Positions 10,129 through 28,187 of a stretch of DNA of 64,000 nucleotides are shown here, one piece after another. The position numbers were made by a program, and so were the translations under genes. This stretch comes from Mesotoga prima MesG1.Ag.4.2 (lineage in GTDB: Bacteria; Thermotogota; Thermotogae; Petrotogales; Kosmotogaceae): contig NC_017934.1 in the NCBI RefSeq assembly GCF_000147715.2, positions 248,001 through 312,000 of the forward strand, written 5' to 3'. Positions within the stretch are counted from its first letter, which is position 1, and each line of letters begins with the position of its first letter. The notes beneath the pieces were generated by a model. The model was not told where the DNA came from, made no database searches, and was given only the letters and a program-made list of their open reading frames with translations.

Positions 10129-10155
10129 AGTTTAGATTGATTATTATGACTAGCA

Positions 10156-10187
10156 AAAAAAAAGAGGGCTAGTTCTAGCCCTCTTTT
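10156..10187. terminator. Bidirectional intrinsic terminator
   Basis: The hairpin arms AGAGGGCTAG and CTAGCCCTCT are flanked by an A-run and a T-run, so it should work for both convergent genes (ending at 10128 on plus and 10204 on minus). Confidence 0.9.
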
Positions 10188-10203
10188 TGCTTTTGCAGAT
10201 ACC

Positions 10204-13200
10204 CTACGGCAGCCTCAAGAACCCATTATCATGTGTCCCGTCAACATAGTTCTGATTAATTGCGTCAAGAACATCATTCAGTTCTGAGGCGGTAAATGAA
10301 CTTCCCAAACCGGCCAAATACCTGTTAGCCTCGGCAAGGACCTCAGCAACTGTCCAGTCTTTGAATATTCCAGTCACGATAACCAAATCCTTAAGATTAT
10401 AGGAGCTGGTACAGAAATTCGGGTCGTACAAATCAAATCCAACACTGAGAGTCAAAGCAACTGCCTGACCTGCAAGAGTTCCTGCACTAGTTGCTGTTGG
10501 GTCTGTATAATTCTGATCGAGCGACCCTGATGTTCCACCCGCAGGCAAGAAGTTCTCGATTGATGCTGAAGTTGTGAAAATAGCTTTGTAACCAGTTGCA
10601 TCACCAATGACCAATCCACTGGGGAATGTGGAAGCGAAATTCGCATCCCTATAGGTTCCAGGATTATTTCCTGAAGCGGATGAACCCCACCCACCTTGAG
10701 TTTGTGTCCTGAAACCTCCTTCGGTGGGTGTGTAAATTGTCACTGTAGCATCATCGGTTGCGTAATAAGCGTCTCCCGTGTCTTCTTTGTATAGCGTCGC
10801 AATATTGTGAAGAGAATACGGTGAATTTTGGAAGTTTGCTGAGTCATTAGTTATATCGACTGGATAGTGAAAAGCTGCTTCGCCATTACCATCTAAATTG
10901 CTGCTATCGATATGTACTCTCCAGGTAAGAGGCGTGCTCACAACAGTAAACCCGTGCAGCTTGAATTCGTTTAGATTAGTGAACTCATCCACAAGATATG
11001 CACTTTCATTAAGATAATCTGTGGAAGTTGGGCTTTCGGGAATATCAGATGTACTGCTGTCTGTGTCTGAATAATCAGTCACAGCTGTTCCGGTAGCGAT
11101 TACAGTTACTGATACTGGACTGCTCAAAGAGGATCTAACAAAGGTGAATGTCCTATCAACTGATTCGCCCGGGTTTAGACTGACTGAATCTGAGGCTGAA
11201 ATCAATGTCTTTGTTTCCCCGTCAAATTCAACCTCCAGAAGCACTTCAGTAAGAGGCAAATCACCAACATTTGTAGCAGTAGCAATGCCAGTGATACTGT
11301 AAGTGGCGGTTCCTGTTGTTTGACCTTCTATACGGGAAACAATTAACGAATAATCGAAACTGGCAGTTTGGCCATCTGCAAGAGTTGCATGTTCCGGCTC
11401 AACTGATTTTTCCAGATCCCATTCATATGGAATCTCGTTTGTCCAAAGAACTTCATGAGTTACTGATGCGTCTATCGAACCGGTTTCTACACTTGGATCC
11501 GGAACAATTATTACTACAGTTTGTGAGTCGTCTTTTTTCTCCTTTGTGTCTTTCTCAGTGAGTGTAGCATTGTTTGTCAAGAAATAAGTGCCTTGAGCCG
11601 CTTCGATATTTTCTATCCTAATGCTGTAAACGTATTTAGTGTTGGTACTTATATCTGTGGGCCAGGAGGGGTGATTCACAATATCAGTTATGCTAAAACC
11701 GGTTACCAAATTTCCGATTTCATCTTCGATATTGTCCAATAGATCATCTACACTCGCTTCTTCATCGTACTTCTTTGTGATGTTTGGATAATGAGGTCCC
11801 GAATGATTACTTGTGTCCTGCGTGGGCAAAGAACCATCTGCTTTGACATAAGCGGTGACCCTGTAGAACTTGCCTTCTATAGGTGTAAAACCAGGTATTG
11901 AGAAAGGATATGTATGTTCTTCACCACTAGAGAAGGAGTTCTTGGAAGAAGTGTCAACCGAGACTGTAGCTCCTTCTGTACTCCAATCGCTACCATTAAT
12001 ACTTGATTCAAGCTGCACATGGATTTTCAGGTTATCAGCCGTAGTAATTCCCGTGCTGGTAAACAAGACTTCCACCTCTCCGGTTAGGCTATGAACATCA
12101 GAGCCTGAAGCGACGGGAGTCTCAAGCCTTGTTGCAGAAAGTGTATAGACAAATGTCTGAGAAGCTCCTTGAGTAAGCGTCACGCTATCAGGAAGAACAC
12201 GCTTTTCGAGCTCCCAATCATACTCAATTTCCCTGTTCCACACAATTTCGTGCGTTGTGGTGGCTTGAAGGGTTCCTGAATCCTCACTTCCCCCAATCAC
12301 GATAATCTGCACTATGGCGTCGTCGACTCTCTTATCTTTTGTGTCTGACTCGGTAAGAGTTGCCATGTTTGTCAACCAGTATTCTCCTGCCTGAAGCTGC
12401 TCAATGCTTCTAATAGTTACGAAATATGTCTTCGTAGCCAGTGAGGTGTCGGCAATATTCCATGGCCAACCCGCACTAGAATGATTCAAAACTTCAAAAC
12501 CCGTAGGAGGGAACGGTTGATCTTCAACTGTGGCATTAGCATCCAAAGGTTGCATTTCAGCGGGTTTGGGCATCAAGAAAGTCTCATACACAAATGTTGT
12601 AGGGAAATTATCCGAAGTTATCTTCATCGATACCCTAAAATAATCTCCTTCATTACCACTGAATGAAAAAGAAAAGGGAACACTTTTGTATCCAGGATCA
12701 ATGTCCCCGAGGCTTCTCATTTTCGGGCTGCCGATATCCTGCCATGTCGCCCCAACCGACTTCTGTAGCTGCAGTTCCACCTGAACGTTCTTGGCAGTTG
12801 CATCGCCTGAATTAAGAACGCCGGCTGAACCAGAGATTGAAAAAGTTGTGCCTTCCTTGAGAGGCAGCCTCTTTGCCTCAAGAATGTATTCAATCTGCTT
12901 CTCAGTTCCACTGCTCGAGGGGAAATTGGGAACTACTGTTGGACTTGCCGTTTTCGTCAGTATCCAGTCATATTCTCCTGATTTGCTTCCTTTAGCATCT
13001 CCATCGATGAATCCATTCAGCCAGGGATCTTTCTGCCCATTCTCGTTGAAATAGGTAACGTGGAACTTGCATACTCCATGTTCATATTTGAAAAGTTTGG
13101 AACTGAAGACGTTTTCCTCCACTTCCTTTTCCAGAAAAAGATGAACGCCAAAGTAAAAAACCGTTGTATCTTCTTGAATGAAAGACTCTAAACTTTTTCT

Positions 13201-13617
13201 GTAAGTAAAGTTAGCCGACTTGGGATTGACAATTACGTGATCATCAAGATCATCCTTTTCAAGTTCACCATCACCGTTTTTGTCCAGTCCTTGCACGCTC
13301 AGTGAATAACCAAGCCACAGTTCCGTTAACATCCAATCACTCTCGAAAGTGTGATTTACAACTAACTCTTTTGTATCATAGTCAACCCAGTAAGTCATCT
13401 TACCAATGAATTCACCGTCAACTTCTACAAACGAATCTGGAGATCGAATGAAGAAAACATATTCTCCAGAATCTTCCTGAGTCAAGAAAATGATTTCTTG
13501 CGTGTATTCCACAATTCCAAGATCTATAACCTCTACTTTCTTCTGAGGCTGAAAACAACTGCTCAAGAACACCGCCAAAAGTAAAATTGCCGTTGAGAAC
13601 AAAAAAAGCCTTTTCAT
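10204..13617 (-). CDS. Large surface lipoprotein with DUF11-like repeats
   Basis: 1137 residues with an ATG start behind AGGGAGGTG. The signal peptide ends in FLSSC. The body has three related stretches, each opening with an H-E-I/V-x-W-x-x-E-I-x-Y/D-W-x-L-E-K motif followed by a DUF11/Ig-like beta region. They alternate with segments sharing a 'YFLTNNATLTEKDTK' type motif. The last ~170 residues form a distinct module starting TQTQGGWGSSASGNNPG, with the FLPAGGTSGSLDQ and LAGQAVALTLSVGFD motifs seen in diverse bacterial extracellular proteins. No catalytic site was recognised. Likely a structural or adhesive surface protein; its substrate or partner is unknown. It is transcribed alone, convergent with the M30-like gene. 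Confidence 0.7.
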   Translation of the reverse strand: MKRLFLFSTAILLLAVFLSSCFQPQKKVEVIDLGIVEYTQEIIFLTQEDSGEYVFFIRSPDSFVEVDGEFIGKMTYWVDYDTKELVVNHTFESDWMLTELWLGYSLSVQGLDKNGDGELEKDDLDDHVIVNPKSANFTYRKSLESFIQEDTTVFYFGVHLFLEKEVEENVFSSKLFKYEHGVCKFHVTYFNENGQKDPWLNGFIDGDAKGSKSGEYDWILTKTASPTVVPNFPSSSGTEKQIEYILEAKRLPLKEGTTFSISGSAGVLNSGDATAKNVQVELQLQKSVGATWQDIGSPKMRSLGDIDPGYKSVPFSFSFSGNEGDYFRVSMKITSDNFPTTFVYETFLMPKPAEMQPLDANATVEDQPFPPTGFEVLNHSSAGWPWNIADTSLATKTYFVTIRSIEQLQAGEYWLTNMATLTESDTKDKRVDDAIVQIIVIGGSEDSGTLQATTTHEIVWNREIEYDWELEKRVLPDSVTLTQGASQTFVYTLSATRLETPVASGSDVHSLTGEVEVLFTSTGITTADNLKIHVQLESSINGSDWSTEGATVSVDTSSKNSFSSGEEHTYPFSIPGFTPIEGKFYRVTAYVKADGSLPTQDTSNHSGPHYPNITKKYDEEASVDDLLDNIEDEIGNLVTGFSITDIVNHPSWPTDISTNTKYVYSIRIENIEAAQGTYFLTNNATLTEKDTKEKKDDSQTVVIIVPDPSVETGSIDASVTHEVLWTNEIPYEWDLEKSVEPEHATLADGQTASFDYSLIVSRIEGQTTGTATYSITGIATATNVGDLPLTEVLLEVEFDGETKTLISASDSVSLNPGESVDRTFTFVRSSLSSPVSVTVIATGTAVTDYSDTDSSTSDIPESPTSTDYLNESAYLVDEFTNLNEFKLHGFTVVSTPLTWRVHIDSSNLDGNGEAAFHYPVDITNDSANFQNSPYSLHNIATLYKEDTGDAYYATDDATVTIYTPTEGGFRTQTQGGWGSSASGNNPGTYRDANFASTFPSGLVIGDATGYKAIFTTSASIENFLPAGGTSGSLDQNYTDPTATSAGTLAGQAVALTLSVGFDLYDPNFCTSSYNLKDLVIVTGIFKDWTVAEVLAEANRYLAGLGSSFTASELNDVLDAINQNYVDGTHDNGFLRLP

Positions 13618-14205
13618 TACAACACCTCCCTAAGAAACGAAAACCCACCCCAAAAATGACAAGCTAATCGGTCGATCAAAGTTATCTAGTCTCATTCTAT
13701 ATCATTGGGGGAAGAAAATCATACGAACGATACACTTTAATAGGTAATTTTACAGTTACTCAAAGATGAATGGGACATTAAGATCATTTTGATTTGAAAA
13801 ACACGTCCTTTTCTCGGTAAAATGAGGTAATGGTTACTTTTAGCGCCACACAGTGCCATCTATGCAATTTGCGAGTAGTCCTCAATGAGATGATCGGTGA
13901 GAAAAGAATAACGGTTAATCGCACACATCGTCAGCATGTAATAAACAATCGATGGACATAATCTAATACTACAATATGAACATATGACTTTGTGATAGAT
14001 TGCATAAGCTGATTTCAGCAGCTCAGTATAGAAGATTGTTGACTTAATGATGGAGAACATTATAGCGATTTCCCGTTATCGAACTGCAGAATGTTGGTAT
14101 CGTTTTTGTCAGTCTTAGTGTGTTATTTCACGTTATTCAGCGAATGAAAAAGGCAAGTATCTTAGCTAATTCTCAATGAATAATAGTGAGATTCTAGAGA
14201 AGCTT
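13618..14205. other. 588-bp intergenic region
   Basis: It separates two minus-strand genes. The first ~20 bases hold the AGGGAGGTG ribosome binding site of the gene ending at 10204. The rest is AT-rich with stops in all frames. I see no RNA gene, repeat or clear promoter with both elements. Confidence 0.4.
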
Positions 14206-16275
14206 TCATCGAGCGGAATAAATACCGAAAAGGGCAATATCAATCAAACCAGATCCAACTGAATCGTCATTATCGAAGTCGCAAAGAGTTGAAAGCATAT
14301 CCCAGGTTTCGTCACCATATTTTGTGAAGTACTTCTCGAAGAAGATTTGATGATCAGACCCATCGAATAGTCCATCATTGTTGATATCTGCAGGATTGGT
14401 TTTACTGTCGATGAAACTCTCCATAAGACTACCGTCAGAATACTCAACGGTTAGAAACGCGCTCTCAAGAATCGATGCCTTTGAGTTCCCACTAGACAAA
14501 ATGGTAACAACTGCTCCTGGAAAGAATTCATCCGATTTAACAGAAATCAGTGAAAGCTTTATCTGAACGCCGTCGGCAGAGCTAGCTATTTCTCTTCGAG
14601 TTTCATCAAACCTTTCACTGACTATGATTTCATCAATCTGGACACCGTCCAATTCTAATGACAGCAGGACAGAAGCGATTGGTGTTTCAGTTTCGATAAG
14701 CTTGAGAGCCAAAATTCCATTTCCGTTTCCACTAATAACCGTATCGAACAACACGAATTCCGTCTTCCTTGAGCCCAAATCAAAATGGATCTCATTGTCG
14801 CGATGGGAAATCGATAAAAGCTCTAGTCCACTTAGAGATTCATCATACCAGTTTGAGTTAGGGGTTGTTTCTGAGCCGAATGATAAGTTATTTGATGAAC
14901 CAGGATAAGGGTCGCCGTCGTCTCCCCTGTTCTCGCGCGATGAGGGATCCATCAGGTCATCCCTTCCGTCGGCTTGAACCAGATAGACCTGCTTGCGCTC
15001 TCCGCTATTCCCGTAAACGGCATCGTCGATATGATATATGAGGAGACCTTCTCCCGGGAGGGCGTAGTCAAAACCGAATTTCGTTCTATTTTCGATGAGG
15101 AAGTATTCCTCCGGTCTGCCAATATTAGAGAACTTAAGAAGCCTGCCACCGATCTTCACATCTTCGAGAAAGAAATCTCCAGAAAGTCTAGAAATCTCTA
15201 GCGGTTCAAACCAGCCCAGTTTCGCCTTGGACCAAGCCGAGAAGTGGGCGGGCATATCCCCCGGTCTATCAACATAGTTCCAGCAACCGTAAGCCATCAT
15301 TCCCCAGTATCCGATTCCCCACGTTGCCTCGGAATAGTCATAGAGGTCTGGCAGGCCAAAAAGATGACCTGTCTCATGTGCCATTACCCCAATTGTCGCA
15401 ATTCCTTTAACGGGATCTCCCCCATTCTCCCTCGGCCAGTCAACCCTCTCCGGCTGAATTGTGAAGAGATCTGCGGTTACTCCATCATTCGTCTCGTAAT
15501 CGAACAATCTCGACTGAAAAGACCAGATATCTAGCTGATCTACAGAGAGTTCTCTCCCCATTCCCTCGTGAATAACGATTATCATATCGACAACCCCATC
15601 ATCATTATTGTCATAAAGGGAGAAGTCGATATCCTTGTCGGCTTTTGAAATAGCTTCCCTCACGAGTTCGAATTCATTTTGTGAATAATAGGCCTTTGAT
15701 TTATCGGCAGTGTACCAGCCGTATACTTCTCCTGACAGATCAACTGAACCGTTAGACACTTCACTATAATAGTCTCTCATAGAACCAAAAGGAGCGAGCT
15801 CAGGGTATGATGAGAAGATTATCTCTTCAAAGTCTTTTACATGATAAGTATGGGGGTAATCGGGGTAGTCAATCAGTATCACCGGTATTTTGATAGTCCC
15901 TTCTGTAGACACCGCGGCGTCTCGAAATTCAGGACCACTCTGTGTACTAAACTTCAGTGATTCGAGAAGCTGCCGGGGTCCAAACGAGGGAATGCCAATA
16001 GGCTGGTCTATCCCTTTCAGGAGATCTGATCTCTGTATCTCACCACCGACAACGACTCCATAATGCCAGAAACGGCTTTGAGGATCTTGCTTAAGAGGTC
16101 TTCCGTATAGATCCAGGATAAAGTTTCGATACTCATCGCCATACTGTCTGAATTCGATTCGAGTGCCGTCAGGTTGATAAGCTGTAATCACTCCACCGAA
16201 ACTGGGCGCTCCAATGAGAACCGCCGAAAAAAGAACAGTGGCGATCATGCATAGAAGGGTGAATCTGCCGATCAT
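14206..16275 (-). CDS. Secreted M6-family metalloprotease with C-terminal dockerin-like domain
   Basis: 689 residues with an N-terminal signal peptide that has no clear lipobox. The catalytic zinc motif HETGH lies at residues 300-304 and continues LFGLPDLYD, the extended HExxHxxGxxD form of M6 (immune inhibitor A-like) peptidases. The last ~63 residues hold a dockerin-like pair. Loop one is DINNDGLFDGSD, with acidic or Asn ligands at positions 1, 3, 5 and 12. Loop two begins DFDNDDS and carries a small insertion. The start codon overlaps the upstream stop as ATGA, so translation is coupled to the cohesin-like lipoprotein at 16272-16802. This pairing suggests the protease is secreted and then docked on the cell surface by its neighbour. 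The family is clear; the docking is inference. Confidence 0.85.
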   Translation of the reverse strand: MIGRFTLLCMIATVLFSAVLIGAPSFGGVITAYQPDGTRIEFRQYGDEYRNFILDLYGRPLKQDPQSRFWHYGVVVGGEIQRSDLLKGIDQPIGIPSFGPRQLLESLKFSTQSGPEFRDAAVSTEGTIKIPVILIDYPDYPHTYHVKDFEEIIFSSYPELAPFGSMRDYYSEVSNGSVDLSGEVYGWYTADKSKAYYSQNEFELVREAISKADKDIDFSLYDNNDDGVVDMIIVIHEGMGRELSVDQLDIWSFQSRLFDYETNDGVTADLFTIQPERVDWPRENGGDPVKGIATIGVMAHETGHLFGLPDLYDYSEATWGIGYWGMMAYGCWNYVDRPGDMPAHFSAWSKAKLGWFEPLEISRLSGDFFLEDVKIGGRLLKFSNIGRPEEYFLIENRTKFGFDYALPGEGLLIYHIDDAVYGNSGERKQVYLVQADGRDDLMDPSSRENRGDDGDPYPGSSNNLSFGSETTPNSNWYDESLSGLELLSISHRDNEIHFDLGSRKTEFVLFDTVISGNGNGILALKLIETETPIASVLLSLELDGVQIDEIIVSERFDETRREIASSADGVQIKLSLISVKSDEFFPGAVVTILSSGNSKASILESAFLTVEYSDGSLMESFIDSKTNPADINNDGLFDGSDHQIFFEKYFTKYGDETWDMLSTLCDFDNDDSVGSGLIDIALFGIYSAR

Positions 16276-16802
16276 CTGACGGCCACCTCAAGAGTTGGTG
16301 AAAGTGTCTCAATATTCACAGTCGATAGATCATTATCCAGAGCGTAATTCGAAATGATACTCAAACTGCCGTTCTCACTGGCGCTAAATATAATTTCAAT
16401 AAAAAAATCCTTTCTGACTTCTTCTTGCTCATCGTAAGGGAAAGCCCCGTGAATAATTACCATTGACTGGATATGGCTTCCAGCAATCAAGGTCAAGCAA
16501 TCCAGATTTGATTCTACGTCCGTTATCTCGACTCCTCCAGAGGCTTCTAGCACTATTTCGAAAACATAGACCTTTTCAAAATTCTTTGCAATTAGTCTGG
16601 TTGAAGAACTTGAACCTTCTTGGACTGTGATAATCGATCTCTCAAAAGCTAATTCAACTTCTTCCGACGGCTTCTTTACAAACCAGCAGCCGGAGGTCAG
16701 CAGCAAAAGCGCAGTTAAGAGGACGAAAAGGCGAAAAACATTATTGAATTTCTTTAAGTATTTGCTCGCAAATGACTCACTACACATAGGATAATTATAC
16801 AT
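16272..16802 (-). CDS. Small lipoprotein with cohesin-like domain, coupled to the M6 protease
   Basis: Up to 176 residues. The hydrophobic stretch ends in LLTSGC, a lipobox. The ~130-residue mature part runs VELAFERSIITVQEG, then VYVFEIVLEASGG, then FFIEIIFSASENG, and ends with a TLEVAV strand. This is the same order of strands as the cohesin-like domains at 2365-2795 and 2815-3537, though more diverged. The start is uncertain (ATG at 16802 or 16787) because neither has a good ribosome binding site, and a TATAAT on this strand overlaps 16794-16799. The ATGA overlap with the dockerin-bearing protease gene makes it a candidate surface anchor for that enzyme. Confidence 0.65.
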   Translation of the reverse strand: MYNYPMCSESFASKYLKKFNNVFRLFVLLTALLLLTSGCWFVKKPSEEVELAFERSIITVQEGSSSSTRLIAKNFEKVYVFEIVLEASGGVEITDVESNLDCLTLIAGSHIQSMVIIHGAFPYDEQEEVRKDFFIEIIFSASENGSLSIISNYALDNDLSTVNIETLSPTLEVAVR

Positions 16803-17452
16803 TATTAGATGAGGTTATCCCGATCACCGTAAAAGAAAGAGTGTGAATCACGAAGGACTTGGTATGGCAAGTAATTAAGATGCGTATTAAGCTAATCCTG
16901 TCGTGGTTCTAATGTGAATTTTCCTTTAGCGTAGATCCTGAATTCCAAATTGAAGGGACTTCAGTTGAACCCTTTAATAATATTTGTAAGACTTGGTGAA
17001 ACCATAATGAAACGATTCATGAGCCGGCCAGCGCAGAAGATTGCGATTGACGAGTTGAAGACTGTCATTAGTTAAAGGCCAAATCAAGCTCTCCTTGGTG
17101 TATAATAATTCTCATGAAGGTTATTCGAAGCGATGATTTGCTCTTAGAAGAAGTGGTTCACAGTAGATCTCGTAATTCAAATGAGGCTTTGACTCGCTTG
17201 AAGAAGCGGTTTGCTCCTTGAAATAGTTTGACATCTGGTTATTAGAAATGGTACAATATTCTCGATTCATCTTGTTTCTAGCGGTTTGAATGTGGTATAT
17301 AATATTTGAGGTCTTTTGTTTGTTCGCGAAACCCATTGTTACCTGTTCGTCTGTTCGGGATCGTTCAAAGCGTTTTTTAGGTATATATGAGTCTCTATAT
17401 GTTCTTTAGCAAATACTTTTCACAACCAAACGCCTTATAGGGGGTGTGTGCA
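16803..17452. other. 650-bp intergenic region between divergent surface genes
   Basis: It is AT-rich with no supported gene. It contains a good promoter for the plus-strand gene at 17228-17257 (listed separately) and the AGGGGGTG ribosome binding site at 17439-17446. The segment around 17214-17240 (CTCCTTGAAATAGTTTGACAT) closely resembles one at 53801-53820. Confidence 0.5.
17228..17257 (+). promoter_or_regulatory. Sigma-70-type promoter for the 1429-residue Cys-rich lipoprotein
   Basis: A perfect TTGACA -35 (17228-17233) and a TACAAT -10 (17252-17257) are separated by 18 bp. This predicts a 5' leader of roughly 190 nt before the GTG at 17453. Confidence 0.65.
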
Positions 17453-20400
17453 GTGGCAAAGAAACTCTTGAAATTAACCACATTGCTGGCTATTCTTCTC
17501 CTCGTGTTCATGCTGACTGGTTGTCCCAAACCACCAGTGGAATACACGTTGACGATTGAGAAGACTGGCTCTGGCGATGGAACCGTTAATGCCGATCCTG
17601 AACCCAATACAAGCGGCAAGTACACAGCGGGAACAGATGTAACACTGACCGCTGAAGCCGATGCAGGATCGCAATTTGTCAAGTGGATAATCGGTGAAAC
17701 AGAGGAAACAGGAAATCCTTTAGTAGTCAAGATGGACGCCGACAAAACTGTTGAAGCGGTCTTTGAGGAAGTAACTGGCGTGCAATTTACCCTTACGGTT
17801 GCTAAAGCTGGAGATGGCGATGGTACCGTTACTCCGCCAGTGGGACCCCACGAGTATGACGAAGGGAAAGTAGTGACGCTAATTGCTGAAGCCGACGAGA
17901 ACAGCGTCTTTGACAAATGGGTTGTTGATGGTGTCGAGTTTGAAGATGCTACAGTCATCGCAACGATGACAAAAGACATTCTCGCAACCGCTCACTTCGA
18001 TCCCAAACCCGATGTTTTGCCTGAGATCATTCTTGAGTGGACATTGGGAGATCTCATGGTTCTTGGAGCACCTTGTGCTGCACCTGAAGACGGTCTCGGC
18101 TTTCAGTATCTGGTAGGCGACTCAGACAGCTCTTTGACGGAAGCGTCCTGGAGCATAGTAAAAGGTGAGGAAGTCGTTTACGGGCCGATAGCAATTCCTT
18201 CTTCAAGATTCTACAATTCCTGGACTGGCGCTATTACTGCAGCAATGCTTGGTGCGGATCCAGTTGGTGGAATCTATTCGCTGACGATGACTGCAACGAA
18301 GACCGGTGGAATCTCTAAGACTGAGAAAATCGATTTCTATGTCCACACTGATGAAGCGGCAATTGACGGGGTCGATTTCGCCGGTGAGATAGTCTTGTTC
18401 GAAGGAACAGCTATTTTGACTGGTGATGAGGCTACTCTTGAAGCAACAATAACTCTAGACTCTAAGGTAAGAGTTAGAATCTACGCTTATGAAGGCGAAT
18501 GGGATTGTGAATGTGTGGATAACGCACTTCTTTACGATGGATTCTTAACTAGAGAAGCTTCGTCAACTGAGAAAGAGACGTTTGAGCTTGATCTCACTAA
18601 GCTCAAGTCGGGCGTTAATTACGATAAGCTAAGGATTATTGTCTACAACGAAATTTGCGGGACGATGCCATGTAACTACTGTCCAGATGATGAAAAAGAC
18701 ATCGATCTAGTTTTCGACAAAACAGTCACGCTGGACTGTGAACCCTGTACTTGTGCACCTTGTACTCCGTGCTGGAACGGCGAGTTTAACCCCGGTGTGA
18801 GAATAATGAATCTGTTGTTCAAAGACAGCGATTTCTTTGATGTCTCTGCTACAATAAACGGGGAGACTATTCCTGCAACCCTTATTGAAGCTCCGGTTGA
18901 AGACGGAGATGATCTGGTAATAAGAGCAATTATTCGCGAGGAAGACTTCCCAGAGCTTGCTGGTGATGCTCTTCTAATATGGACTGTAACCACGGTAACA
19001 GGTCAAAGTGTTGTAGTAGAGTGTGACGAGGACTTTGACTTCATACCACCTGAAGTTGATATCCTTCTTGAATGTGACTGTGATGCAACTACTACTGTAG
19101 TTCCGATCCTGTTCACGGATGAAGCCGGTCTGAAGGAAGCCAACGTTTGGTTTGGTGAATCGGTTTCTGGATTAATCAAGAAAGTCACGTTTGATGCAAC
19201 ACCGACGGGTGAATCTACGACCACATTCACTTCTGGTTTCACTTCAGGATGGGAGTTTCCCGCGACTGGCATGATATACGATGTTATTGCGACCATTGAA
19301 CTTGATCCTGCCAAGATCGTAAGCCCGACGCTCGGCGGCAGCTACACTGTCTATGCAGATGCAGAAGACACATCATGCAACATAAGCGATGTGGCAATGG
19401 AAACCTGTGCGATAGACTTCGTGGCTCCAACTATAACGTACTTTGGCCTTGATTGCGTTGGAACTGATTGCGATCTGTGTGAAGCAACACAGACAACTCT
19501 TGTTTGGCACATAAGAGATGTCAACTTTGACTATGCAGAGATAAGTGTAAACTACGGAAATCTCTGTTCTGATGGTCAGTGTGGCAACACATTTATAACC
19601 GAATCTAAGGACGGAACGGTACTCTGGGAATTCCCGTTTGCAGATTGCAGAGAGATAACTGCCACAATCAAAGCAGTAGATGACTGTGAGAACGAGAGTT
19701 CTAAGACAATTAAGTTCGACGTTGACAACGTTCCTCCAGAGCTCGATCTCGAATGGTGCGTCGAACCTGAAACGTGTGACGCGACGTTTGCAAGATTTAG
19801 CTGGACGATGGACGATCCTTGCACTCCTACTGTTTATTTCGATACGTGGATTCCGATTGGAGAGCTTGACTATGTGGTCATGGAGAATGGCAAGGAAGTG
19901 TTGTATCCTTATACACCTGATGGAACGACCACAAAGAGTGGAATAATTCAGTGGAGCTGGGAGAACTGTTTCTTTGATTGTACAGAACTTACGATTTTCG
20001 CAGAGGCTGTAGATTTCAGATGTGAGAACTCCACAGAAGCGAGTTTGACAACAGACGTCGCGCTTGATTTCCTTCCTCCAGAGGCTCATCTATTCCTTGG
20101 AGAAAGTCAGGCAAAATACGCATGGGAGGCTTACGAAAACGAAACGAATATTGGTTCTCCGGATTGTGACGCGACTTGCCTCTGGGTGAACTGGATAGTT
20201 TTCGAGGACTGCTTGGAGTCGATAGAGATCTGGTCTAACTACCCGTCCGTATGTGAAACTGGCGGAACTGGAGAATATCTGGAAGACGAGTATTTGCTTT
20301 TTGCGTGGCCTGAGATGAATGCACCAACTGGAAGTGGTTGGAGATGGTATTCTTGTGGTGATGAAAATGAAACAGCAGCTACGATACAAGCTGCTGAAGG

Positions 20401-21742
20401 ACTGGATGGCGATAATGGCTTTGGTTACTATTATCCAGCTAAATACTACTGGGGATCCATAAAAGTCTGCCTTCCGTCCAATCTCGACTGCGAAGACTTC
20501 GTAGCAACTATCACAGCAGTGCAGACATGTAAGCCTGACATCGATGAACCAGAGACCTACACTTCTGTTGATGACGATAATGCTCTTATCGACAGAAAGG
20601 CGCCAGAGATTCTCACGTTCGATTGGTTGACCGTTCCGACTGCTTGCGCTACGGAAGCAACCGTAACAATAGAGGCATACGACGGTTCATTCATTGGCAA
20701 GAGTTCTGTGGATGCTTACATCGAAGGTGAAATGGTATATGAAGACGGAGAGGTGGTCCCATTCGGCGGAGAGACAGTTCTTCTGACAATTGACCCAGTG
20801 ACTGGTATTGCAACAGGTACTTACTGGAACACATATGATCAGATTAACTGCGCAACAATAGTAGCAACGCTAACTGTTGGTGATATTTGCTGCGATGGTG
20901 TAGATCCGAATCTGTCTGTTCAGAGACTTGAGATCGACATCGACAACGTAAAACCCAATGTGAATGATTTCTACTTCGCATCCGAAGCTAACTCTAGTGA
21001 TGAGTTGTCAGATGTTTCCGGTGATGGATGGACAATGGATGTAGATGAGACTACTCATGCTTCGTTGACAGCGTGTGGCACTGACTTCGTTTACCTTTAC
21101 TGGGATGCGGACGACATTACAGGAGACTCTACTGGCTGCTATGCAGGTGTAGAGATCCTCATGGAGCATGGCGATGGAACAGTAGATGTATTTGAGTCCC
21201 CCGCAGCGACTGGAACAGTTAAGTGGGAGTTTGGCGAAGTTGCAGGTGATACATTGCTGGCAACGATTACAGCACAGCAGGAAAACGGGTGCCTGGAAAG
21301 CGATCCTGCGACCGTAAGCGCTTACGTGAGCAATGTTGGACCGCAGTTTGTTGCGCTCCGCTTCCAAGTTCCTTACGATCCGCCACTCGCTCCTCCAGTT
21401 CTTGGTACCATTTGGGTTGACTTCAACGTCCCAATTGACACTTCAGAAGCAACCGCCAACATCTGGAGATGGGACGACCTGAGCGAAACATGGATGCTTG
21501 AGACGTATGTTGATGGAAATCCATGGATATGGGATAAAGGCATCACTGGTGACGATAATGTAGACTTGAAGAGAGCACAGTTAGTAAACGTTGATGGCAC
21601 TATCGGTTATCCCATAGTTCTTGATGGACTTTACAAGCTGGAGCTTTACTCGATTAAGTCTGTAGCTGGGGCTTGTGAGGGAATATACATCGATCCGCTT
21701 GTGCGAACAGGTACTGGACGAATTACAGCTCCTGAGTTTTGA
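17453..21742 (+). CDS. Giant cysteine-rich Ig-like surface lipoprotein
   Basis: About 1429 residues. The GTG at 17453 is chosen because it sits 6 nt after AGGGGGTG; the GTG at 17444 overlaps that site. The lipobox is FMLTGC. Two InlB-type repeats (to about residue 185) are followed by a long run of six or more Ig-like units. Each opens with paired cysteines (for example ECDCDATT, CVGTDCDLCEA, CVEPETCDATF) and holds a W-x-F...DC...TATI-x-A strand pair, closing in FDVDNVPPELD-type linkers. A dense cluster (CEPCTCAPCTPC) lies near residue 430. The many evenly placed cysteines suggest disulfides or metal binding outside the cell. No enzyme domain was seen. It is monocistronic, with its own promoter and terminator. 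It may be a major sheath (toga) or adhesion protein; that role is inference. Confidence 0.75.
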   Translation: MAKKLLKLTTLLAILLLVFMLTGCPKPPVEYTLTIEKTGSGDGTVNADPEPNTSGKYTAGTDVTLTAEADAGSQFVKWIIGETEETGNPLVVKMDADKTVEAVFEEVTGVQFTLTVAKAGDGDGTVTPPVGPHEYDEGKVVTLIAEADENSVFDKWVVDGVEFEDATVIATMTKDILATAHFDPKPDVLPEIILEWTLGDLMVLGAPCAAPEDGLGFQYLVGDSDSSLTEASWSIVKGEEVVYGPIAIPSSRFYNSWTGAITAAMLGADPVGGIYSLTMTATKTGGISKTEKIDFYVHTDEAAIDGVDFAGEIVLFEGTAILTGDEATLEATITLDSKVRVRIYAYEGEWDCECVDNALLYDGFLTREASSTEKETFELDLTKLKSGVNYDKLRIIVYNEICGTMPCNYCPDDEKDIDLVFDKTVTLDCEPCTCAPCTPCWNGEFNPGVRIMNLLFKDSDFFDVSATINGETIPATLIEAPVEDGDDLVIRAIIREEDFPELAGDALLIWTVTTVTGQSVVVECDEDFDFIPPEVDILLECDCDATTTVVPILFTDEAGLKEANVWFGESVSGLIKKVTFDATPTGESTTTFTSGFTSGWEFPATGMIYDVIATIELDPAKIVSPTLGGSYTVYADAEDTSCNISDVAMETCAIDFVAPTITYFGLDCVGTDCDLCEATQTTLVWHIRDVNFDYAEISVNYGNLCSDGQCGNTFITESKDGTVLWEFPFADCREITATIKAVDDCENESSKTIKFDVDNVPPELDLEWCVEPETCDATFARFSWTMDDPCTPTVYFDTWIPIGELDYVVMENGKEVLYPYTPDGTTTKSGIIQWSWENCFFDCTELTIFAEAVDFRCENSTEASLTTDVALDFLPPEAHLFLGESQAKYAWEAYENETNIGSPDCDATCLWVNWIVFEDCLESIEIWSNYPSVCETGGTGEYLEDEYLLFAWPEMNAPTGSGWRWYSCGDENETAATIQAAEGLDGDNGFGYYYPAKYYWGSIKVCLPSNLDCEDFVATITAVQTCKPDIDEPETYTSVDDDNALIDRKAPEILTFDWLTVPTACATEATVTIEAYDGSFIGKSSVDAYIEGEMVYEDGEVVPFGGETVLLTIDPVTGIATGTYWNTYDQINCATIVATLTVGDICCDGVDPNLSVQRLEIDIDNVKPNVNDFYFASEANSSDELSDVSGDGWTMDVDETTHASLTACGTDFVYLYWDADDITGDSTGCYAGVEILMEHGDGTVDVFESPAATGTVKWEFGEVAGDTLLATITAQQENGCLESDPATVSAYVSNVGPQFVALRFQVPYDPPLAPPVLGTIWVDFNVPIDTSEATANIWRWDDLSETWMLETYVDGNPWIWDKGITGDDNVDLKRAQLVNVDGTIGYPIVLDGLYKLELYSIKSVAGACEGIYIDPLVRTGTGRITAPEF

Positions 21743-21989: not shown

Positions 21990-24839
21990 TTGAATTCAAA
22001 ATCATTTTGTCTAATGGTATTGTGTGTTGTTTCAGTAGTGTTGTCAGGATGCTTTGGGGGTTTTTTGGCACCGCTGAATCTCGAGATTCCTGATCAAAGG
22101 ATACTTGCAGGGGAAGCTTTGCACTTGAACCTCAAGCAGTTTGTCGATTGCAAAGAGAGCGACGATCTTGTTTTCCGAATTGTCTCTGGAGTCGGCATTA
22201 TCTGCGAAGATGTTTACAGTTATCTCCCCGCTTTGGATGAGAGCGGGCTGTACGAGGTTCAGATATCCGTGAATGACAGCAAAGATAGAGAATCGAGTTG
22301 CGTTTTCGAGATCATGGTTGACCCCATTTATTGCGATATCACTTTGAACGCTTCACCCCTTGAAGGCGGAGTTATATCTGGAGGAGGGATCTTTCAATAC
22401 GGAGACATGGATACGGTTCAAGCAACTCCAAGTCAAGGATATAGTTTCACGGGATGGTATGAGGGAAACGACTGTTTGGCTTCGACGACTACGTTCACCT
22501 TCTTTGTAGAAAGAGACGCGACATTAGTGGCTTGCTTCTTTGAGGAGAAATATCACGTCATTAGAGAAGTAAATGGAAATGGGAGCATTGAAATATCTCC
22601 CGATAAAGAGACATACTCTTTTGGAGAGAAGATTGTATTGACAGCCCATCCCTCTTATGGCTGGAAGTTTTCGGAATGGGTGGTTGATGGTAATCGCTTT
22701 ACCGATGAATCGATCGTAGTAGTAGTGGACGGTGACAAATCAGTATGTGCATCATTTGAACGAGAAGAGTTTGCTCTAAACATCTCGATAAGTGGAAATG
22801 GTAGCGTCTCCTGTTCACCTGCCTCTTCCGGTTGTGTATATGAGTATGAGACGCTTGTAGAGATTATGTCTATACCATCCGCAGGATGGGAATTTGAGAT
22901 GTGGCAAGGAGATCTAGACGGATTAGATAATCCGGGAAAAATTATCATGGACTCGGAGAAACACGTGACAGCTGTTTTCGTCAAAAGGGAGTATCTGGTC
23001 GAGGTTACTGCGGACCCACCTGCCGGGGGAGTAGTCGAAGGTGGTGGTTGTTATTTTAGTGGAAGCGAAGTTGAGATTGTGGCGGTTCCAAATTCCGGAT
23101 ATCGGTTCAAGGAGTGGAGCGAAAATGGTGCAACGTTCTCTAGAGAAAACAAGATAAATATAATAGTATTGCGCAATTTCGAGCTTACTGCGCATTTTGA
23201 GGTGGATAATGCCGTTCCTGTCGTCGAAAAGCTCAATGGTCCCGAAGGAAAGGTTGAGAAAAGCAAGGTAGGGTTTGTGTGGAATGGAACTGACCCCGAT
23301 GGGTTTATTGAAAGATATGAGTACAGAGAAGATGGAGGAGACTGGATAGACATTGGCACCAAGACTTATTTCAACTGGAGCGGGTACTCGGAGGGGCCGC
23401 ACACCTTTGAAGTAAGAGCCCGGGACAATCAAGGCGCTTATTCCGAGACGGTAGGCTGGAGTTTCGTTTACGTTCCTGCTTATACTGAACAAGGGGCATT
23501 CAAAGTAGCAAACTCATGGGGAACTGGCGGGTGGGAAAGCATTCCTGATGGGTTCATATTCATTACGTATGAAGCTATGAAGCAGAATGAAGTTCTTTGT
23601 TTTGTTTTGGATCCCAGAGACAACTATGAGCCCAGGGCGATTGCTGTCTTCGAAATCTCTCATCCACTGAGAGAAGAATGCAAGATCTGGGTAGGGGTAG
23701 GTGATCCAGCTAATCCGTTAAAACTCAAGAGCTTCGATGATTTCTATTATCGTGGTGGTGGTTGGCCGTATCCAGCCAACAAGATGGTCCTTGATATCAC
23801 CGAGTTGTTGCCATTCGATGAGAACATAGTTTTTCTCAAAGTCTTTGATGGAGGTTCAATGTCTACCGGAGTTATAGGTCATTTCTCCGTCGAGGTATAT
23901 GACAACTATCCTTCTGGATCTCCTGTTCAGGTATTCTCTGCTGTCGAGACTCCAAAGGATACTATGAACGGTTCGTATGTTAGCGTAAGCATAAACGATG
24001 TCTCGGTCTCATCTACGAGTATTGGCTGTTCCTTTGCATCTCCAGGACTCCCGACTTCTCTTCTTTTGAAAATGAAGGAGACGCTTGGGACCTATGAAGA
24101 AGGTGTCGACTACAACGAGATAATCGAAGGACATGGAACAGGTTTGAGGCCTCCATCGGAAGAAGAATGGCGAGCGATCGAGAGTTCTTGGCATGAAATT
24201 GAGGGCTTTTCACCTCAAGACGGACTGCCTTATTTAGTTGACCATTCAAGCTCGGTGTACTTTCCACCTATAGGAAATCAAGGAAGCGAAGGTTCTTGTG
24301 TCGCCTTCTCTCTGGGTTACTATACATCGACATTCTATGAGGCCCGTGACAGAAACTGGAATCTCTCTGGGGCTGCCTGGGAGGGGGGCTTCTATGGGGC
24401 TCCTTCAGACTCATATCAAGACAGAATATTCAGCCCTGATTTTGTCTATCACCAGATAAATGGAGGTAGAGACACGGGCTGTTCATATGTTGATGCGATA
24501 AATCTCATCGCTAGACTTGGAATATGTAGCTGGAGAAGGATGCCATACAGTGTAAGCGATCACACCTCATGGCCATTAGAGAATGCTTGGAGGGAGGCAC
24601 CAAGGTATAGAAGCCGCAATGAGACTGTGGGAGTGGTTTCTGTCGAGGATGATGAGGATATCAATGCCCTCAAGTTATACATTAGCTCGGGCTATTTGAT
24701 CTCGATTTCAATAGATGCCAGCAAGTATGCTTATCTGACGGCAAACGATGTGTGGAACACGAAAAACTATACGAACCCAAACACAAATCACGCAAATACT
24801 ATCGTGGGATATGACGACACTTTTGACGGCACCGAGTAG
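21990..24839 (+). CDS. Surface lipoprotein with InlB repeats and a circularly permuted papain-like (C1) peptidase domain
   Basis: 949 residues with a TTG start 9 nt after AGATAGGGGG. The lipobox is VLSGC. It contains a cadherin-like domain (about 30-110), four InlB-type repeats (about 112-405) and a fibronectin-like domain (about 408-490). The rest resembles a C1 cysteine peptidase in rearranged order. The NSWG motif with Asn508 comes first (in GAFKVANSWG). The Gln764/Cys770 motif (PPIGNQGSEGSCVAFS) and His934 (NHANTIVGYDD) follow, 15 residues before the stop. Gln and Cys are six residues apart, as in papain (Gln19/Cys25). All catalytic-type residues are present, so activity is plausible after permutation. 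The sequence after the stop does not continue the domain. Predicted role: surface thiol protease or a peptidase-fold binding protein. Confidence 0.75.
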   Translation: MNSKSFCLMVLCVVSVVLSGCFGGFLAPLNLEIPDQRILAGEALHLNLKQFVDCKESDDLVFRIVSGVGIICEDVYSYLPALDESGLYEVQISVNDSKDRESSCVFEIMVDPIYCDITLNASPLEGGVISGGGIFQYGDMDTVQATPSQGYSFTGWYEGNDCLASTTTFTFFVERDATLVACFFEEKYHVIREVNGNGSIEISPDKETYSFGEKIVLTAHPSYGWKFSEWVVDGNRFTDESIVVVVDGDKSVCASFEREEFALNISISGNGSVSCSPASSGCVYEYETLVEIMSIPSAGWEFEMWQGDLDGLDNPGKIIMDSEKHVTAVFVKREYLVEVTADPPAGGVVEGGGCYFSGSEVEIVAVPNSGYRFKEWSENGATFSRENKINIIVLRNFELTAHFEVDNAVPVVEKLNGPEGKVEKSKVGFVWNGTDPDGFIERYEYREDGGDWIDIGTKTYFNWSGYSEGPHTFEVRARDNQGAYSETVGWSFVYVPAYTEQGAFKVANSWGTGGWESIPDGFIFITYEAMKQNEVLCFVLDPRDNYEPRAIAVFEISHPLREECKIWVGVGDPANPLKLKSFDDFYYRGGGWPYPANKMVLDITELLPFDENIVFLKVFDGGSMSTGVIGHFSVEVYDNYPSGSPVQVFSAVETPKDTMNGSYVSVSINDVSVSSTSIGCSFASPGLPTSLLLKMKETLGTYEEGVDYNEIIEGHGTGLRPPSEEEWRAIESSWHEIEGFSPQDGLPYLVDHSSSVYFPPIGNQGSEGSCVAFSLGYYTSTFYEARDRNWNLSGAAWEGGFYGAPSDSYQDRIFSPDFVYHQINGGRDTGCSYVDAINLIARLGICSWRRMPYSVSDHTSWPLENAWREAPRYRSRNETVGVVSVEDDEDINALKLYISSGYLISISIDASKYAYLTANDVWNTKNYTNPNTNHANTIVGYDDTFDGTE

Positions 24840-25204
24840 AAATTCGAAAAGTTTCTCTTTGAAGATTTCTGAGTGTCTTGGCTCATTCCTGAATACTTTA
24901 GGAACTAGCGATGCCTCTCGCTGAGATTATTTGGAACCTGAGAAAAAATAAGTTTTCCAGGTAATAGTCTGGTTGTATCAGTCTAGATCACAGGGCTTTG
25001 TTCCGGGTTTTAAGATTGCTGGTTTTTTGGGCGATTACTTGAGCGTGATTCTACACAGAACCTGACAGCTTAGAAGAATGATTCAGTACATTTAGCAGAC
25101 AGATACAATCTTCGCAAATCCTATTCCGTACAAATCCGAAGGTCATTGTGAGTATAATCACAAACATGATATAATCTTTTAAAGTCCCTCAAGGAGTGAT
25201 GCTC
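24840..25204. other. 365-bp intergenic region
   Basis: No gene was seen. It ends with the promoter at 25146-25175 and the AAGGAG ribosome binding site at 25191-25196. Translating past the stop at 24839 gives no missing peptidase sequence. Confidence 0.5.
25146..25175 (+). promoter_or_regulatory. Promoter for the beta-helix lipoprotein gene
   Basis: TTGTGA (25146-25151), an 18-bp spacer, then a perfect TATAAT (25170-25175). The likely start codon is 30 nt further on, behind AAGGAG. Confidence 0.55.
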
Positions 25205-27010
25205 ATGCTTGACCGCAAGTCCCTTAAAAGTGTTTGCCTAGTCTTCTTTGTCCTGATTTTGATAGCGTTTTCTTCGTGCAGCGGCTCGAAACCGCCTGAG
25301 ATTGTCATTCCTGATCAGAGCGTGAGACAGTATCAATTGCTTCAAGTTGATCTTTCAAGCTTTGTTTCAGACAGCGAGAGCGACCTCCTATTTTCTCTGC
25401 AGGAAGGTCCGGGAAGAATTGTGGGATCAGTCTATGAGCTTGTGCCCGAATCAGATCTGTCTGGTCGTGCTCGGGTTTCACTTCTGATAAGAGACAATAA
25501 AGGTAATGACTTCAGCTCGGCTTTCTTCGTGAACATTTTTGAAGGGCAGCTTCCTGACAATTCAAAAGCAAGACTGGATTTCGTTGTTCCTCAACAGTAT
25601 GCTGAAGTGGGGGATGTTATTAGATTGGGCCTCCCTGGATTTAGATTGGCGTCTGATGATCTGGAGTTTGAGATTATTGAAGCTAATGCTTCTCTGAATG
25701 CGTTTGTAGAGGACGGAGTACTTACTCTTAAGCCGTCAGACGACGCTGTCGGTGAGGATGCTTTGCTAATAAGGGCATCTGATGGTGAGGATTCAGTCGA
25801 ATTCAAAGTACCCTATTTTGTTAGAAGAAGAAATCTTTCCCCAACTCTCAGTATAGGTGATCAGTCTGTTGTCGAGGGGGACTCTGTGAGGGTTGATCTT
25901 TCCCAGTTTGCAAGGGATCCCGATGGTGAGATCGTGAAATATGAGGTCCTCGGCGGGCCGGGAACGGTTAGCGACGAAGGTATATACATACTGACCGCCC
26001 CTTACGGATCGAGCGGAACGCATACAGTAACAGTAGAGGTAGAGGATGACAGGGGAGGTCTTGGTCGCGGATCATTCAGAGTGCATGTAATGCCTGCAGA
26101 CTCATCTGAGAGGAGGACGCTCATCGTTGGGGGCGAGGAAGCCCTGTACACTTCGATTCAGGCTGCGATTGATCAGTCAAGGGACGGCGATGTCGTGCTT
26201 GTAATGCCCGGTGAATACTGTGAAAACCTGATCCTTGACAAGGCAATAGAGCTTAGAGGATCATCCCGAGACAGTGTCTTACTGAGAGGTCAAAATCAGA
26301 ATGCTCCTGTAATAATGGTCAGGACGGGGAATGGGTTCATGATTTCTGGAATGACTGTTGAAAGCAACTTAACAACGATTCAGGTTTCAAGAATCACCGG
26401 GACAATAGTTGACTGTCATGTTGTGGGCGGTCGCTTTGCTGTTTCATATAGCAGTATTGACAGTTCTACTCTAATAGTAAAGAATTGCTCATTCTCCTCT
26501 CTGCCTGATGCTGAAGGGGAAATAAACTCTCGATTGACTGGTCTTTATGCATACGGCAGCGGGAGCGTAAGAATTGAAGGGTGTGATTTTATCAGATCGG
26601 GTACGGGTATATATATTACAAATGACGTCAAATACGAGATTGTCGAAAGTGTCTTCAGGGAGAACAGAATAGCTGTTTCTGTTGCTGGCAATACTAACGG
26701 GCATATTTCCAATAATAAGTTCACAGGGAATGTTGAAAATGGTCTGCTTATTAGTTCAGTTGGAGTCACTGAAGTGAGTAACAATATGTTCTATAAAAAT
26801 GTTATTCACGGACTCGACCTATATTTGAGTATGTGCACGGACTGTGGTTGTGGTGGGAAGGTTTTCAAGGGCACTGTAACTGGTGGGGGAAATATTTTTG
26901 ATAGCACGGAAGGAATCTGCCCGCAGAGCCATACGTGGCCTGAGAATTTCTACGTGGTTGATGAGCTTCTAGGAAGGTCTGCAACAGAGATGAATCAGGG
27001 GTCGGATTGA
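25205..27010 (+). CDS. Lipoprotein with cadherin-like domains and a right-handed beta-helix
   Basis: About 601 residues. The ATG at 25205 lies 8 nt after AAGGAG; the GTG at 25196 and ATG at 25199 are too close to that site. The lipobox is AFSSC. Three cadherin/Ig-like segments follow (PEIVIPDQSVRQYQLLQVDLSSF near the start; SIGDQSVVEGDSVRVDLSQF near residue 215). From about residue 305 (YTSIQAAIDQSRDGDVVLVMPGEY) to about 560 is a pectate-lyase/NosD-type beta-helix with repeated N-x-F and G-I-x-I turns. No catalytic set is evident, so a polysaccharide-binding or lyase role is open. A CTDCGCGG cluster occurs near residue 545. It is followed after one base by the thioredoxin/CcdA gene, probably as an operon. 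Confidence 0.75.
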   Translation: MLDRKSLKSVCLVFFVLILIAFSSCSGSKPPEIVIPDQSVRQYQLLQVDLSSFVSDSESDLLFSLQEGPGRIVGSVYELVPESDLSGRARVSLLIRDNKGNDFSSAFFVNIFEGQLPDNSKARLDFVVPQQYAEVGDVIRLGLPGFRLASDDLEFEIIEANASLNAFVEDGVLTLKPSDDAVGEDALLIRASDGEDSVEFKVPYFVRRRNLSPTLSIGDQSVVEGDSVRVDLSQFARDPDGEIVKYEVLGGPGTVSDEGIYILTAPYGSSGTHTVTVEVEDDRGGLGRGSFRVHVMPADSSERRTLIVGGEEALYTSIQAAIDQSRDGDVVLVMPGEYCENLILDKAIELRGSSRDSVLLRGQNQNAPVIMVRTGNGFMISGMTVESNLTTIQVSRITGTIVDCHVVGGRFAVSYSSIDSSTLIVKNCSFSSLPDAEGEINSRLTGLYAYGSGSVRIEGCDFIRSGTGIYITNDVKYEIVESVFRENRIAVSVAGNTNGHISNNKFTGNVENGLLISSVGVTEVSNNMFYKNVIHGLDLYLSMCTDCGCGGKVFKGTVTGGGNIFDSTEGICPQSHTWPENFYVVDELLGRSATEMNQGSD

Positions 27011-27011
27011 A

Positions 27012-28187
27012 TTGTCTAAGATCGCGTTTGGCAGATGGCTAGCAATCCTTGCAGTCTTGACGTTTCTCTCAGCCAACTGTGTGGGAGCGATCGAGATAGA
27101 CTTTTTCGGGGTTGCGACATGTCAGGAATGTTTTGAAGCCGAGATGATGATCGAGAGCCTTAAGTATGAAGTAGAGGATGAGGTTGTTCTCAACAAGTTC
27201 ATGCTTAGCGAGGCAGAGAATCAGGAGCTCAAGCTGAAGTACGCGAAGGTGTACGGGGTATCTGAAAGTGAACTCGATCTTTACCCAATGATATTCATTG
27301 GAAAAGATGCCTTTACCCCGTTAAATACCACTCCTGACAGTGTGCTGGAAAGTATGATCAACTACTCTCAGGAAGAGCGAGAAACAAAACTTCGGGAGAT
27401 AGAGGCCCTAGGTGATGATGTCACCCACAGGCTGAACGATAGATACGAGCAGTTCAGCCTCTTCGTCGTTCTCGGGGCCGGTCTGATTGACGGAATAAAT
27501 CCGTGTGCGTTTGTTGTTCTCATTTTCCTTGTCTCGTATCTTTATTACGTTGGAAGAGGGAGAAACGAGATTCTAATTGCGGGAATATTCTTTGCCGTGG
27601 GGATCTTTGCGGCCTATCTCGCCATGGGAACCGGTCTTCTGGGAGCTGTGGGATACGTCGAGAGCATTTCCAAGGTGTTCCAGCTAATCTTCTATCCCGC
27701 TATGGCTATCTTCACAGGGCTACTCGCCGTACTTTCGGTCGTTGATTTCTACAGGATGAGATACAGGAACAAGAAGGCGATCCTTGAGCTTACTCCTGGT
27801 TTGAAAAAGAAGACACACGAGATTATTAGAAAGAACGCGAGGGCGAAGACCATATGGATCGCATCGCTCGTAACTGGAATTCTCGTTTCTTTTGTAGAGT
27901 TCATGTGCACCGGTCAGGTTTACCTTCCCACGATCGTCTATATCATAAACAGCTCCGGCGTAACTGGAAGGGCGCTGGGATTCCTTGTTGCTTACAATCT
28001 AGGCTTCACAGTTCCGATAATTGCAATCACGCTGATAGCTTACTTCAGCTCGTCGACGAAGAGGATTCAGGAGTTCATGACGTCCACGCAGGCCGCAGCG
28101 AAGATAAAACTGCTAATGGGAGCTCTGTTCACAGTTTTCTTCGTAATAATGCTAAATATCACCCTGAAGACGTTTAGTCTGATATGA
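27012..28187 (+). CDS. Thioredoxin-like domain fused to a CcdA/DsbD-type membrane electron carrier
   Basis: 391 residues with a TTG start one base after the preceding stop. A signal/TM segment is followed by a thioredoxin/glutaredoxin-like domain with the CxxC pair C37-C40 (VATCQEC). Around six TM helices follow from residue ~150, with the conserved cysteines C165 (DGINPCAF) and C299 (FMCTGQVYLPT) that relay electrons in CcdA/DsbD proteins. The family moves reducing equivalents from cytoplasmic thioredoxin across the membrane to exported partners. Here the N-terminal CxxC domain would be the outward acceptor. The neighbourhood of cysteine-rich surface proteins suggests disulfide reduction or isomerisation there, which is inference. 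No cytochrome c genes are in the window. Confidence 0.8.
   Translation: MSKIAFGRWLAILAVLTFLSANCVGAIEIDFFGVATCQECFEAEMMIESLKYEVEDEVVLNKFMLSEAENQELKLKYAKVYGVSESELDLYPMIFIGKDAFTPLNTTPDSVLESMINYSQEERETKLREIEALGDDVTHRLNDRYEQFSLFVVLGAGLIDGINPCAFVVLIFLVSYLYYVGRGRNEILIAGIFFAVGIFAAYLAMGTGLLGAVGYVESISKVFQLIFYPAMAIFTGLLAVLSVVDFYRMRYRNKKAILELTPGLKKKTHEIIRKNARAKTIWIASLVTGILVSFVEFMCTGQVYLPTIVYIINSSGVTGRALGFLVAYNLGFTVPIIAITLIAYFSSSTKRIQEFMTSTQAAAKIKLLMGALFTVFFVIMLNITLKTFSLI

Follow-up and report, generated by a model that had tools for sequence, protein, structure and literature searches.

Circularly permuted papain-like folds are known in NlpC/P60 enzymes (LRAT, YaeF/YiiX and BcPPNE), in PPPDE and in LupA (PMC3142127, PMC10318531), and some of the permuted NlpC/P60 enzymes bear lipoprotein signal peptides (PMC3142127). 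LupA/LotA and the OTU-type deubiquitinases share with the protein described here permuted strands, including beta-3, and membership of the papain-like superfamily, but they belong to other clusters of it (PMC10318531). Cluster I, that of papain and the cathepsins, is stated to retain canonical structures (PMC10318531), and the word permutation is absent from an analysis of how the papain family originated (PMC10380794). We could find no permuted C1/cathepsin-type peptidase in open-access papers beyond the superfamily reviews; natural circular permutation is apparently undescribed for the papain family in this literature.

Cwp84 of Clostridioides difficile (cited in PMC10380794) is a multidomain C1A enzyme of the cell surface in which a lectin-like domain is joined to the catalytic one, and in this it resembles the protein described here, whose surface location is predicted. 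Its order is canonical. The nearest solved structure, its N-terminal region included, is that of xylellain (PDB 3OIS), a short bacterial C1A peptidase; unlike our protein it has canonical order, a single domain and neither beta-sandwich nor stalk.

The window, a stretch of 64,000 nucleotides from Mesotoga prima MesG1.Ag.4.2, contains on the forward strand an ORF (21990-24839) for a protein of 949 residues. This protein is very probably a natural circular permutant of a C1 (papain) cysteine peptidase, in which two segments of one molecule, a and b, would form an ordinary papain active site.

Order of the catalytic motifs in the window protein

Translation places Asn508 in GAFKVANSWG, Gln764 and Cys770 in GNQGSEGSC, and His934 in NHANTIVGYDD. 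The linear order is Asn508-Gln764-Cys770-His934, with Cys770 ahead of His934 by 164 residues and the last residue, 949, lying 15 past His934. Segment a (GAFKVANSWG and a beta-sandwich) comes first and segment b (the pro-like part, Gln, Cys and His) second (Table 1). The initial annotation had read the order of the motifs, the early end of the protein and the papain-like Gln-Cys spacing of six (Gln19/Cys25 in papain) correctly. Its 'some 260 residues' for the displacement of NSWG corresponds to the distance from NSWG to Cys (262 residues); to His the distance is 426 residues. It was also right that the DNA past the stop does not supply the missing part: there is no NSWG-like continuation past the stop of the gene in any frame. 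Restoration of the missing part downstream by frameshift or read-through was considered for this gene, with relatives looked at too, and is ruled out, as no frame past the stop has it.

Table 1. Parts of the gene for the permuted peptidase, in window positions
Feature	Position	Strand	Basis
TTG start and lipoprotein signal peptide MNSKSFCLMVLCVVSVVLSGC	21990..22052	+	Lipobox LSGC; predicted lipidated Cys is residue 21
Stalk: a single IPDQ/cadherin-like domain (by eye) followed by four divergent InlB B-repeats	22077..23207	+	Pfam Flg_new_2, E=1.3e-45, 4 stretches
Fn3/Y_Y_Y-like domain adjoining the catalytic unit	23211..23486	+	Weak Pfam Y_Y_Y match, residues 442-483
Segment a, catalytic part, residues 502-541: GAFKVAN(508)SWG, Asn strand and last papain strands	23493..23612	+	Asn invariant in 19 permuted rows; model strands 14-18, 33-37, 47-51
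Segment a, C-terminal beta-sandwich, residues 544-679	23619..24026	+	DSSP strands 61-182 of the model; found behind b in 58 canonical loci
Pro-region-like segment with GHGTGLRPPSEEEW, residues 689-744	24054..24221	+	Equals canonical N-terminus minus signal peptide, internal here; from model residue 216 aligns with xylellain N-terminal region
Segment b, catalytic part, residues 745-949: Gln764, Cys770, His934	24222..24836	+	Residues invariant; aligns with mature papain/cathepsin to about residue 170, Z about 13
Stop codon, at the place of the His-Asn hairpin loop in canonical relatives	24837..24839	+	Comparison with canonical loci

The Pfam match to Peptidase_C1 (PF00112; 22.7 bits vs a gathering cut-off of 20.7) covers profile positions 71-177 of 220 only and ends at the His strand; thus the profile's C-terminal stretch has no counterpart past His. 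Among permuted members, 8/19 are matched by PF00112 at E<=0.01, and homology to the C1/papain family was tested further by profile matching, where cathepsin K chains were hit with an E-value of 2.3e-7. NCBIfam has no catalytic-domain model that matches the permuted or canonical proteins tried, and the beta-sandwich has no Pfam match; by Foldseek, part of the model resembles chains with PLAT/C2-type domains (lipoxygenase, lipase and PI3K).

With MEROPS C1A/PF00112 the window protein shares Gln, Cys, His and Asn, the spacing of 6, the NSWG motif and the predicted fold, but not the order, which is Asn-Gln-Cys-His instead of Gln-Cys-His-Asn. Since neither the window protein nor any permuted relative has the C1A linear order, we class them as a permuted variant descended from the family rather than as ordinary members. 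The N-terminal pro-region of C1A is not found at its usual place either: the homologous segment is internal (residues about 689-744). The permuted NlpC/P60 enzymes (LRAT, YaeF/YiiX, BcPPNE) and PPPDE likewise combine a papain-like fold with circularly permuted catalytic residues, but they are a different family, in which the Cys helix has moved to the C-terminus and His precedes Cys. In the window protein Cys stays before His and it is the Asn strand that has moved to the front; there is no His before Cys and no Cys helix near the C-terminus.

Relatives with permuted and canonical order

A family search with the 460-residue piece from 490 to 949 of the window protein gave one uninterrupted end-to-end match in nine other genomes of the family, with identities of 49-65% (60-65% within the genus, 49-52% in two other genera) and E-values down to 5e-206. 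A paralogue on the same chromosome, 2.28 Mb off (G000:C1:2547610-2548986), has the a-b order over its full length at 61% identity. The relatives of the same order for which the initial annotation had proposed a search thus exist, in this paralogue, in the nine family genomes and also in Spirochaetota and Riflebacteria. The permuted homologues of the family end about 9-15 residues after His. Asn, Gln, Cys and His are invariant in 11/11 family sequences (alignment A1) and in 19/19 permuted rows of a wider alignment (A2), whose identity to the window protein is 34-64%. Among the Mesotoga homologues, dN/dS over the a-b region is 0.06-0.17.

A scan of 84,980 species genomes yielded 320 relatives, the best 80 of which were kept and sorted by separate profiles of segments a and b. 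These best 80 of 320 fall into two clean classes, a-b or b-a, with zero mixtures: 58 loci have both segments in the order b-a, and 17 loci (18 genes) have a-b, more of which were found later. The b-a form occurs in Bathyarchaeota, Thermoplasmatota, Bacteroidota, Neomarinimicrobiota, Calditrichota, Cloacimonadota, Planctomycetota and others; hosts of a-b in the scan were Thermotogota, Spirochaetota, Riflebacteria and one Cloacimonadota MAG. The canonical relatives (e.g. L022, L025, L031 and L047) are 36-53% identical per segment and share with the permuted proteins both segments and the pro-like motif GHGTGLxPPTEEEW; they differ in the b-a order, the ordinary signal peptide and the extra modules or sorting domain at the C-terminus.

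It is these canonical relatives that supply the other half of the argument for the circular permutation proposed by the initial annotation, a reading that our comparison supports. Their His-to-Asn spacing has a median of about 28 residues (range 16-30, 56 loci), as in NHANTIVGYDDNYGPYTENGQQRYGAFKVVNSWG of L031. In the permuted proteins the chain ends soon after GYDD or what corresponds to it, and GAFKVANSWG comes first; therefore the cut, between GYDD and GAFK, falls in the hairpin loop that joins the His strand to the Asn strand in canonical relatives. Homologues with the other segment order, and termini that match a loop, are thus both at hand (one tree includes 58 canonical and 23 permuted rows). 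The a-to-b linker of the permuted proteins, ...YNEIIEGHGTGLRPPSEEEW..., equals the canonical N-terminal region directly after the signal peptide, which fits a fusion of two copies and a subsequent loss of the outer parts. One locus (L039) has two permuted genes in tandem, so duplication does occur in this protease family. No tandem intermediate, b-a-b or b-a-b-a, was seen among all loci fetched.

The ancestral gene would have had the order signal peptide, pro-region, b (Gln-Cys-His), a (Asn part and beta-sandwich) and C-terminal modules, and would have been permuted at the hairpin loop between the His and Asn strands. The simplest route would be tandem duplication with fusion (b-a-b-a), after which the first b and the last a were lost. 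The presumed product is a lipoprotein with the order lipid anchor, stalk, a, pro-region, b.

Judged by sequence, the permuted form is kept in at least three bacterial phyla with all four predicted catalytic residues intact. The family model gave full-length matches in 12/103 genomes of Thermotogota (whole-genome search) and full-length permuted matches in 4/392 of Spirochaetota (phylum sample), where the other matches, as far as their loci were read, are shorter canonical C1 genes with Asn soon after His. Riflebacteria have permuted genes in 4/39 genomes, one of them with four copies. One Spirochaetota permuted lipoprotein (L120, 1180-2916) has only 579 residues and a divergent segment a, and may help to date the permutation. 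In the Cloacimonadota MAG AUK116 (L016, 3276-4631) a permuted gene clusters with a Kosmotogales sequence (100/100). This gene may reflect transfer or a binning error, and Cloacimonadota were for that reason left out of the count of phyla; apart from it, the whole-genome search found the canonical form in that phylum.

For a tree of 81 rows (58 canonical, 23 permuted), every row was given one and the same order of b and a. Mapping of the permuted and canonical labels takes 2 changes on it, vs 20.2 when labels are shuffled. The permuted rows form two blocks in the best tree: 12 from Spirochaetota/Riflebacteria and 11 of Thermotogota, the Cloacimonadota MAG included. Two origins, one for each block, or a single origin later reversed in a large canonical clade, would account for these blocks, for the 34 canonical rows beside one of them and for the recovery of a single origin in 5% of bootstrap trees. 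The separating branch is weak (91/88), however, and a tree with a single permuted clade has a log-likelihood lower by 3.98 and is not rejected (p-AU 0.172). We regard two origins or a reversal as a serious possibility, if somewhat short of an even chance.

Predicted fold and competing readings

The window piece 490-949 was modelled with AlphaFold2 from an alignment (A3) of permuted rows and separate a and b pieces of canonical relatives; as a canonical control, L025 was taken as the first row of alignment A4. The structure prediction that the initial annotation had suggested for this region returned one compact, confident unit (mean pLDDT 94.0, pTM 0.93), and the control was similar (pLDDT 92.4, pTM 0.93). 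Such a pTM is unexpected for a 460-residue chain with uncertainly placed halves, and implies that the a and b parts are placed confidently relative to each other in the model, i.e. are predicted as one body.

After a circular shift the secondary-structure elements of the two models correspond closely. The permuted model has in its first part the Asn strand E14-18, E33-37, H38-43, E47-51, the beta-sandwich, H200-210 and H235-244, and in its second part the Cys helix H281-299, H327-334, H344-353, H375-384, E391-395, H399-410, E415-419, H421-426 and the His strand E445-453. The canonical model begins with H2-7, H32-41, the Cys helix H80-98, H117-122, H126-133, H143-152, H174-183 and E191-194, and continues with H198-209, E214-218, H220-225, the His strand E244-259, the Asn strand E262-271, E286-290, H291-298, E300-303 and the beta-sandwich.

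In sequential structure alignment, residues 257-456 of the permuted model align with papain residues 1-170 only (1ppn, 167 residues, 2.4 A, Z 13.3), with residues 13-52 of the piece supplying the remaining papain strands. The canonical control, by contrast, spans full mature enzymes of the papain type (e.g. caricain 1-216, 208 residues, Z 21.2); this is the difference that a permutation predicts. Xylellain (3OIS) is matched with Z 16.8 over 203 residues by the permuted model and with Z 24.8 over 242 by the canonical one. The window protein is accordingly predicted to have the papain fold. In this fold the chain would enter the R-domain barrel at the Asn strand, run through the beta-sandwich, the pro-region and the Cys helix and end with the His strand; the barrel would be built from both ends of the chain, with a and b packing into an ordinary papain active site, and catalysis would proceed as in an ordinary thiol peptidase.

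The same parts could in principle assemble between molecules, segment a of one protein filling the b barrel of a neighbour in a strand-swapped dimer or a surface chain. Since the R-domain barrel is open at the edge where the cut lies, swapping is sterically easy; the permuted proteins are predicted surface lipoproteins with stalks, and such completion is compatible with a monomer model. However, the monomer model has high confidence across the two parts as a whole, and what connects a to b is a structured beta-sandwich plus the pro-region, with no rigid spacer to keep them apart; we consider intermolecular completion improbable. Still harder to credit is a broken or chimeric remnant, that is, a decayed tandem pair of C1 genes with an incomplete active site, kept only as an adhesin. 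Decay of a tandem pair would yield the same order once, and the stalk alone could be adhesive, but at least three phyla retain the order and all four catalytic residues, dN/dS over the region is 0.06-0.17 and the AlphaFold2 model is confident.

A local misassembly, named by the initial annotation as a way in which its reading could fail, or a mis-annotation, either of which would have swapped two pieces of an ordinary C1 gene, would agree with the coincidence of the swap point with homologous segments of canonical genes. It is refuted, and we give it practically no credence, because the second locus and independent genomes of several phyla show the a-b order with always the same boundary. A circular permutant whose a and b parts complete one active site within the molecule thus stays our preferred reading.

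Lipoprotein signal, stalk and tethering

In the window gene a GGGGG run ends 9 nt upstream of the TTG start, and the lipobox LSGC occupies residues 18-21, with lipidation predicted. A simple pattern rule, not a trained predictor, called a lipoprotein signal in all permuted proteins with a readable N-terminus (18/18 in a first set and 11/11 in a second, with some genes in both) and gave counts of ordinary signal-peptide type vs apparent lipobox of 57 vs 4, then 32 vs 3, in canonical relatives. Ordinary signal peptides prevail in canonical relatives within Spirochaetota too. The extra modules of the canonical proteins examined (CARDB, cohesin, Por secretion tail) come after the catalytic part; those of the permuted proteins (InlB repeats, Fn3, PKD, CHB_HEX_C) come before it, and in one gene of L039 the spacer from the lipobox Cys to segment a is <20 residues. 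As lipobox and module placement differ by class, the permutation goes with a change of the anchored end: it accompanies a shift of the tether from the C-terminal side to the N-terminal one, whether as cause or as by-product being a matter of interpretation.

The surroundings of the gene are rich in surface and secreted proteins (5800-21742). One of these is a 1442-residue protein that has InlB repeats and gives a weak peptidase MA-like match; another, of 1137 residues, matches nothing in Pfam. There are also an M6 (immune inhibitor A type) peptidase (14206-16275) and a Cys-rich lipoprotein of 1432 residues with InlB repeats (17444-21742). Downstream (25196-28187), a lipoprotein that combines IPDQ/Big_9 domains with a right-handed beta-helix is found together with a SfLAP-like membrane protein. 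In L014, homologues of the two (34% and 82% identity) adjoin the permuted protease on the opposite strand, and in Mesotoga sp. WOFB36 (L015) the permuted gene has a beta-helix protein after it. Beyond its lipobox, the protease starts with a domain (22077-22328, IPDQRILAGEALHLNLKQF...) similar to the one that comes first in the beta-helix lipoprotein (about 25280-25540, IPDQSVRQYQLLQVDLSSF...); modules thus appear to be shared between neighbouring surface proteins.

The window protein is most likely a membrane-tethered extracytoplasmic thiol endopeptidase, attached through its N-terminus to the tip of an adhesin-like stalk, its activity, location and substrate being predictions. It would be exported by Sec and lipidated at Cys21, and the stalk would hold it at the cell envelope. 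Because the pro-region is internal, its removal on activation would yield a two-chain enzyme. We tentatively suggest, as a possibility rather than a likelihood, that the permutation is a tethering adaptation: entry of the chain at the His-Asn hairpin would let an otherwise C-terminally joined enzyme hang from a lipid anchor and stalk at its N-terminal end, while the pro-region became enclosed within the chain, so that activation would require a cut in the internal linker and give two chains; the same loop may have been permuted twice.

Other papain-like families are known to include permutants, but the C1/cathepsin cluster has been described as canonical (PMC10318531). The present proteins carry a warning that motif and domain searches which depend on order will label such enzymes truncated. 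Through the tight link with the lipoprotein signal, these proteins give a permutation a concrete reason that can be tested, something seldom available. Together, the permutant and its close unpermuted relatives make a matched pair for the study of fold tolerance, of gene origin and of activation with a pro-region inside the chain.
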